Part shown: positions 17,619-58,689 of the stretch, piece by piece
Layout: the number at the start of each line of letters is the position of its first letter
Position numbering within the stretch: the stretch's first letter is position 1
Assembly (NCBI GenBank): GCA_022826195.1
Contig: JAJDVI010000058.1
Span: 62,001 to 126,000 of the forward strand
Length of the DNA stretch: 64,000 bases
Reading direction: 5' to 3'
DNA from: Acidobacteriota bacterium
GTDB lineage: Bacteria > Acidobacteriota > Vicinamibacteria > Marinacidobacterales > Marinacidobacteraceae
Program-made: the position numbers and the translations under genes
Notes under the pieces: model-generated
What the model saw: the letters and a program-made list of their open reading frames with translations, nothing else
The model's database searches: none
Told to the model about the DNA's origin: nothing

Positions 17619-17648
17619 GACTCCAACCGGAGGGATGGATTTAGCCTA

Positions 17649-17847
17649 GCAGCCGGTGAGGAAACTCACGCGGCATTCGACGCCCGCTGGATCCCCGCTG
17701 AAACGCTCGCCTTCGGCTCGCTCGTCGTTGCGCTTCGGTCGAAATACACCCGGTATTCCTCCCTCGCGCGCCTTGTCAGCGAGGCCCAGCGGGCACCAGT
17801 TCTCCCGGTGGGGGGTCGGTGCTCACGCCAGTTCCCCCACCGGCTGC
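17649..17847. repeat. Structured dispersed intergenic element, copy 1 (199 bp)
   Basis: Ends GCAGCCGGTGAGGAAACT...AGTTCCCCCACCGGCTGC (terminal inverted repeat); reverse-complement homolog of 58417-58597. Confidence 0.9.
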
Positions 17848-18136
17848 CAGCAGTCCGGAACGCCGGGACCGGGAGCTCCGGAGACGATTCTTCGTGAGAA
17901 GAGCGGGCACGGGAACGCGTTCGGAATGGTAGGATCGGCGGTCGGGCTGCGGACGGTCTCCGTCCGTGCGAACGAGCGCGGCGGCCATTTCGTCCGCGTG
18001 ACGACCGGCCGAACGAGGTCCAGCGTTTCGAGCTGGCGCACGTCGTTCGGCGGCCGGTCCGGGCGCCGGGATCCGAGCGATTCCCCAAGTGTTCCCGGGT
18101 CGGAGCGAATCCCTAACGTCCACAATCTGGAGCAGC

Positions 18137-20223: not shown

Positions 20224-20395
20224 GCGCCGGCTTGGAACGCCGGCTTCAGCCGGCACGGCCCGCCGCAGGCGGGCGGCGGGACGGACCCCATCCGCCCGAT
20301 GGCTCCGCTCTGCGCCATGCATCCGGGGTAGCGACGAACCGCCCGCGGCCCTGGGGGCCGCTGTGCGGGCTGAAGCCGGCGTTCCAGGCCGGCGC
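20224..20395. repeat. Long inverted repeat (REP-like), arms 20224-20251 and 20368-20395
   Basis: gcgccggcttggaacgccggcttcagcc vs reverse complement of ggctgaagccggcgttccaggccggcgc: 27/28 identical. Confidence 0.85.
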
Positions 20396-58399: not shown

Positions 58400-58416
58400 G
58401 GACAGACGCCTCGCTA

Positions 58417-58597
58417 GCAGCCTGTGGTGGAACTGGCGTGAGCACCGAGACGCCCGCTGAGCCTCGCTGACAAGGCGCGCGAGGAGGGAATACCGGGTGT
58501 ATTCCGACCGAAGCGCAACGATGAGCGAGGCGCAGGCGAGCGGTTCAGCGGGGATTCAGCGGGTGTCGAATGCCGCGCGAGTTTCACCACAGGCTGC
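58417..58597. repeat. Structured dispersed intergenic element, copy 2 (181 bp, inverted relative to copy 1)
   Basis: GCAGCCTGTGGTGGAACT...AGTTTCACCACAGGCTGC termini; highly similar to the reverse complement of 17649-17847; lies between rplI and dnaB. Confidence 0.9.
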
Positions 58598-58689
58598 TCG
58601 GGATTTTCCGCTGAGGAAGTGACGCGGCTCAGCCGGAGTCCGTCATGGCCGGGCCGCGTGACGTCTTCCACGGGCTGCTCCGGGCGGGG

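Follow-up and report, generated by a model that had tools for sequence, protein, structure and literature searches.

Two related blocks that lie in opposite orientations in the window (the whole 64,000-nucleotide stretch of Acidobacteriota DNA analysed here) raise the question of what kind of dispersed element keeps its two arms matched while their sequence changes. The first-pass annotation described the blocks as inverted copies of one structured element, and both are as described: their ends form imperfect terminal inverted repeats, both arms change jointly at repeat positions 7 and 12, and an inner pair covaries between the copies (GCCCGCTGG/CCAGCGGGC versus ACCCGCTGA/TCAGCGGGC). The GGAATAC-ACCCG-GTATTCC hairpin is likewise present, the mismatch in copy 1 being one A.C. 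The CCTCGC/GCGAGG hairpin described for both copies is no helix of the family consensus. Against the covariance model R1, which was built from 14 copies of the same genome, copy 1 gives an E-value of 8.5e-24 and copy 2 scores 186 bits. The basic unit is 181 nt, and a secondary insertion of 18 nt brings copy 1 to 199 nt. The features are collected in Table 1, where + for copy 1 is the written orientation, from left to right terminal repeat, and the putative folded strand is the opposite one.

Table 1. Positions of the two element copies and of their parts and junctions in the window.
Feature	Position	Strand	Basis or remark
Copy 1	17649..17847	+	Full 181-nt element plus 18-nt secondary insertion; own-genome search
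Copy 1, left arm of outer stem (GCAGCCGGTGAGGAAACTCACGCGGCA)	17649..17675	+	Helices 1-3 of the consensus fold
Copy 1, conserved apical core (CGTTGCGCTTCGGTCGAAATACACCCGGTATTCCTCCCTCGCGCGCCTTG)	17726..17775	+	GCGTTGC...CGCGCCTTG motifs kept in homologues of other families and classes
Copy 1, 18-nt secondary insertion (ACCAGTTCTCCCGGTGGG; part of repeated CCAGTTCTCCCGGTGGGGG)	17795..17812 (about)	+	Alignment to 181-nt copies
Copy 1, left junction TA	17647..17648	+	Empty sites read ..GCCTAGCAG..
Copy 1, right junction dinucleotide CA (TA in empty allele)	17848..17849	+	
Copy 2	58417..58597	-	Full 181-nt element, same family as copy 1, opposite orientation
Copy 2, right junction TA (element orientation)	58415..58416	-	
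Copy 2, left junction GA (element orientation; TA in empty alleles)	58598..58599	-	

A 20-nt sequence of the CCCCCACCGGGAGAACTGG type (window 17795-17814) interrupts element copies at no fewer than seven different positions and in both orientations (L004, L005, L016, L049, L058, L064, L067, L068, L078, L084, L092 and L098). Each such insert adds a net 18 nt and resembles a separate micro-insertion; the sequence occurs about 35 times per 615 kb of loci. In two copies (L017 and L002) an additional segment rich in hairpins, roughly 90 nt long, follows CGCGGCATTC, at one and the same internal position.

The element is not confined to the two copies of the window. In the draft genome (3.85 Mb) DNA searches and R1 reveal 20 clear copies, most of them exactly 181 nt long. 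All seven genomes of the same genus contain the family, with 6 to at least 44 matches each when 44 candidates per genome were scored, counts in which strong copies also score weakly on the other strand, and most sister species carry more copies than the genome of the window. An exact 40-nt core pattern matched 103 stretches in public species genomes; among the matches listed, the record titles are all Acidobacteria or Acidobacteriota. Covariance models also detect true homologues in further families and classes of the phylum; at E <= 1e-6, 33 of the 297 genomes sampled contain them. Homologues outside the family or class measure 151-164 nt, the whole range being 151-181 nt, and across the phylum a genome may hold up to dozens of copies. 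The distant homologues share core strings such as CATTCGA, GATGCATCCCG, GCGTTGCTC, TCGCGCCTTG and GGGCGCCTCG, and their outer stems, for instance CCTGGCGGG/CCCGCCAGG, have diverged strongly but remain self-complementary.

No described family accounts for these sequences. Scanning with Rfam (release 15), at gathering as well as permissive thresholds, gave no family match to the element, only tRNAs in the window and chance-level matches elsewhere, and no coding match turned up. The 181-nt unit, with its complementary ends, is non-coding and contains no conserved ORF. Plasmid, phage and viral-contig collections yielded no homologue, and the literature searched contained no description of an Acidobacteria repeat of this kind. 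The initial description of a dispersed structured element outside the known families therefore stands. Weak-scoring core-like hairpins (GCGTTGC...GCGCCTTG) with unrelated stems are present in IMG/VR viral contig sequence (L263, 3154-3350; L264, 5247-5471); these are possibly very distant relatives.

In the class-wide alignment 92% of the cells pair and both sides have changed in 45 of the 59 pairs; the covariation score is 0.343, compared with 0.048-0.067 after the 3′ partners have been shifted by 1-3 columns, and none of 500 shuffles scored as high. Since this alignment had been fitted to the covariance model, a second test used 61 copies of 181 nt without gaps, whose alignment was fitted to no model. 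Here 95.6% of the cells pair (36-44% when slid), double changes occur in 31 pairs (7-13 when slid), and the score is 0.21 (0.02-0.04 when slid). Core columns 78-117 were fixed by the search pattern in most of these copies, and their invariance is therefore no evidence. At the extreme ends, the two terminal bases are paired with each other in 92 of 98 copies. The compensatory changes first noticed between two copies are thus genuine, for the covariation is very strong and collapses in the shifted-pair controls. Across the phylum the stems covary, whereas the internal loops and the unpaired letters of the core stay conserved, so that homogenisation of the arms alone is insufficient.

The mismatches that are tolerated within the stems are biased with respect to strand. 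An A.C opposition on one strand is G.U (or G.T) on the complementary strand. Counting only pairs with a Watson-Crick consensus, we found 100 A.C cells versus 17 G.U cells in the written orientation (about 6:1; p~1e-15), and since the copies share ancestry such p-values overstate independence; the better argument is the agreement of three data sets, the ratio being 47:12 in the class alignment and 37:11 in the phylum alignment. Mutation bias does not explain the excess, because the corresponding transition classes number 61 v 93 in loops and 225 v 140 in stems, the loops leaning the opposite way. The tolerated A.C excess indicates that the molecule which folds is the reverse complement of the written orientation. 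That the copies keep one hairpin fold although the letters of the stems vary suggests that one particular strand acts as a folded RNA or as single-stranded DNA.

The joined flanks of 13 copies from the genome of the window were searched in seven sister genomes, and at least 12 of the 13 have empty orthologous sites in relatives, seen as uninterrupted flank matches; the copy 1 site is empty in five sister species. The insertions are precise: they lie at TA, sometimes CA, dinucleotides and lengthen the site by about 183 nt net, from which we conclude that the element is mobile and MITE-like. This reading, one of those first offered, is upheld by short length, lack of coding capacity, terminal inverted repeats and filled and empty sites alike. 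The cleanest case is L010, where the filled site reads GCACTA[G...C]TAGCG and the empty site GCACTAGCG. TA stands at the right junction in 68 of 98 copies, at the left in 46 and at both in 32. About ten targets read CA in relatives, and there the filled site usually keeps TA on the right. Strict TA duplication is unproven, since the right TA is far better kept than the left and CA targets occur; the junction is TA-type, its net gain reflecting either target duplication or a TA borne by the element. A 4-bp YTAR duplication of the IS5 type was considered and dropped, since the terminal base pairs with its far-end partner and does not track the outer base.

Most copies are intergenic, and the target is mostly YTAR, probably often within a stop codon. 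By crude ORF calls, 27 of the 98 copies abut an ORF end by 1 nt, which is what one would expect if insertion took place at TA+R in a stop codon and the element, by its purine end, restored the codon. The orthologous site of copy 2 is empty in three relatives and occupied by another subfamily in two (G002 and G007), which is 77% identical to the copy in the genome of the window (G000), with 14 double-changed pairs; in G005 this locus holds an element within an element. One site can therefore be hit repeatedly or overwritten. Nested elements (L101, 2051; L039, 6382; L050, 1105; L081, 4524) lie at the same position of the host copy's apical core, which suggests a preferred target inside the element's own core.

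Several explanations of these data have to be weighed. Were this a plain MITE, its arms would be complementary only through cruciform or template-switch repair copying and its fold would have no function. The arms do match better within a copy than between copies, and a long imperfect palindrome inserted at TA resembles known MITEs (PMC2229807). Arm copying, however, should erase internal loops, whereas these loops and the unpaired core letters persist across classes despite fully changed flanking stems; nor does homogenisation at the DNA level predict the A.C over G.U strand bias. Arm homogenisation, which the first-pass annotation had allowed, is thus disfavoured as the main cause, the same loops being unpaired phylum-wide and the mismatches strand-biased, and we regard the plain MITE as improbable. 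Far less credible is a fixed, non-mobile regulatory RNA, for example a terminator or a 3′ UTR element, whose copies spread together with genes. The intergenic position of nearly all copies, the abutted ORF ends and an excess of copies co-directional with both neighbouring genes (39 vs 21) agree with it, but precise empty sites, nested elements and different subfamilies at one orthologous site do not. Moreover, read-through mRNAs would, given the weak orientation bias, contain the non-wobble strand rather than the putative folding strand. As a complete account, a fixed RNA is refuted by the empty sites, although regulation could be a secondary role.

The junctions bear on a further possibility, which we consider unlikely: a recombinase, rather than a TA-duplicating transposase, would move an element that carries its own flanking dinucleotide, by way of a circular intermediate and a 2-bp crossover. 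The right TA found even where relatives read CA (nested L101, L039, L050 and L081; also L005, L007 and L012) and the variable left NA are congruent with this, whereas the clean TA/TA versus TA cases (L010, L096 and L004) resemble simple duplication.

We favour, as the probable explanation, a non-autonomous MITE-like mobile DNA element that is selected to fold, the folded strand being the reverse complement. Such an element would insert precisely at TA-type dinucleotides, mostly YTAR between genes, with the gain of about 183 nt. Its sequence would be maintained for folding into a long hairpin that has internal loops and a conserved core at its apex; the folding strand, as RNA or single-stranded DNA, would presumably be the reverse complement of the written orientation. 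A putative trans-acting enzyme would move the element and recognise the fold or the core, and the folded strand may serve a cellular or transposition function. A bolder version, which we put forward tentatively and think rather doubtful, is that these are phylum-wide mobile structured RNAs or ssDNAs, in which the fold of one strand is the transposition substrate or guide and is recognised by an enzyme through its loops, while the terminal repeats drift but go on pairing. The family is real, mobile and structured; it is ordinary as a MITE and unusual in its selection for a single-stranded fold.

No autonomous element with matching ends was found using end patterns and the DDE_3, DDE_1 and Y1 genes examined; these genes were few, and neither an element nor matching ends accompanied them. 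None of the unpaired end-like sequences in the genome of the window flanks a transposase. IS630-type DDE_3 was not found in that genome, and the DDE_3 genes of G001 and G004 are without these ends. Because the genome is a 93% complete draft, the absence of a mobiliser is not decisive. A contig-end region repeated three times in the same genome (L280, L281 and L282, on contigs C20, C68 and C40) holds a single end-like sequence (TAGCAGCCTCTTGTGGAACTGGCGTGAGCACCGAG), next to which lie PPK2-like and HU-like reading frames. No second end was found there, and the region yielded no autonomous partner.

The element is best filed as a variant of the TA-targeting bacterial MITEs, and is possibly a mobile structured RNA. 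Correia/NEMIS, RUP and ERIC are MITEs of this type (PMC2229807). Like these and Nezha, it is shorter than 200 bp, non-coding, flanked by TA junctions, bounded by terminal inverted repeats, dispersed between genes and able to form a long hairpin. Unlike them, it has a fold that is kept by compensatory change across the phylum and a conserved looped core; it is also G+C-rich, and its terminal repeats differ between lineages. RUP has IS630-Spn1 as its partner, whereas no partner IS was found for this element, and none of the DDE_3 genes examined has the same ends, as an IS630/Tc1-mariner-derived MITE such as RUP would imply. The CIR repeats of Caulobacter and Brucella are dispersed and intergenic, with RNA-like stem-loop models and a TA motif (PMC2229807). 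Compared by description, CIR and the element share these characteristics, but CIR is without terminal inverted repeats.

One fold and one set of loops kept phylum-wide, with rewritten stems and strand-specific wobble, point to selection on a single-stranded form. Bacterial MITEs are usually viewed as decaying IS fragments and their hairpins as by-products. The present element allows a test of whether some MITEs are in truth mobile RNAs or elements recognised as ssDNA and, with its many empty sites in uncultured Acidobacteriota, offers a well-resolved system. In integron attC sites, too, the structure is conserved, the sequence is free and one strand folds; the element differs in having no gene cassettes or integrase and in inserting at dispersed TA-type sites.

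REP/BIME sequences, which are associated with RAYT (an IS200/IS605-like Y1 transposase), are likewise extragenic palindromes in many copies, and RAYT-type genes are present in the genus of the window's genome. REP units, however, are hairpins of 20-40 nt by a Y1 gene, whereas the element is 160-181 nt long and multi-helix, with TA junctions. The REP-like reading proposed at the outset thus fails on size and fold, and no copy adjoins any Y1 transposase gene examined. The retron reading raised along with it, which would call for a reverse transcriptase beside an msr-msd locus, is likewise unsupported by the analysis, in which ORFs were listed around copy 1. The Y1 genes lie near a different repeat (L278): a palindromic repeat (GGAACGCCGGCTTCAGCCGG) is arranged in tandem at L278 1025-1435, the locus of a sister-genome Y1 (RAYT-type) transposase gene, and is found inverted in the window at 20224-20395.
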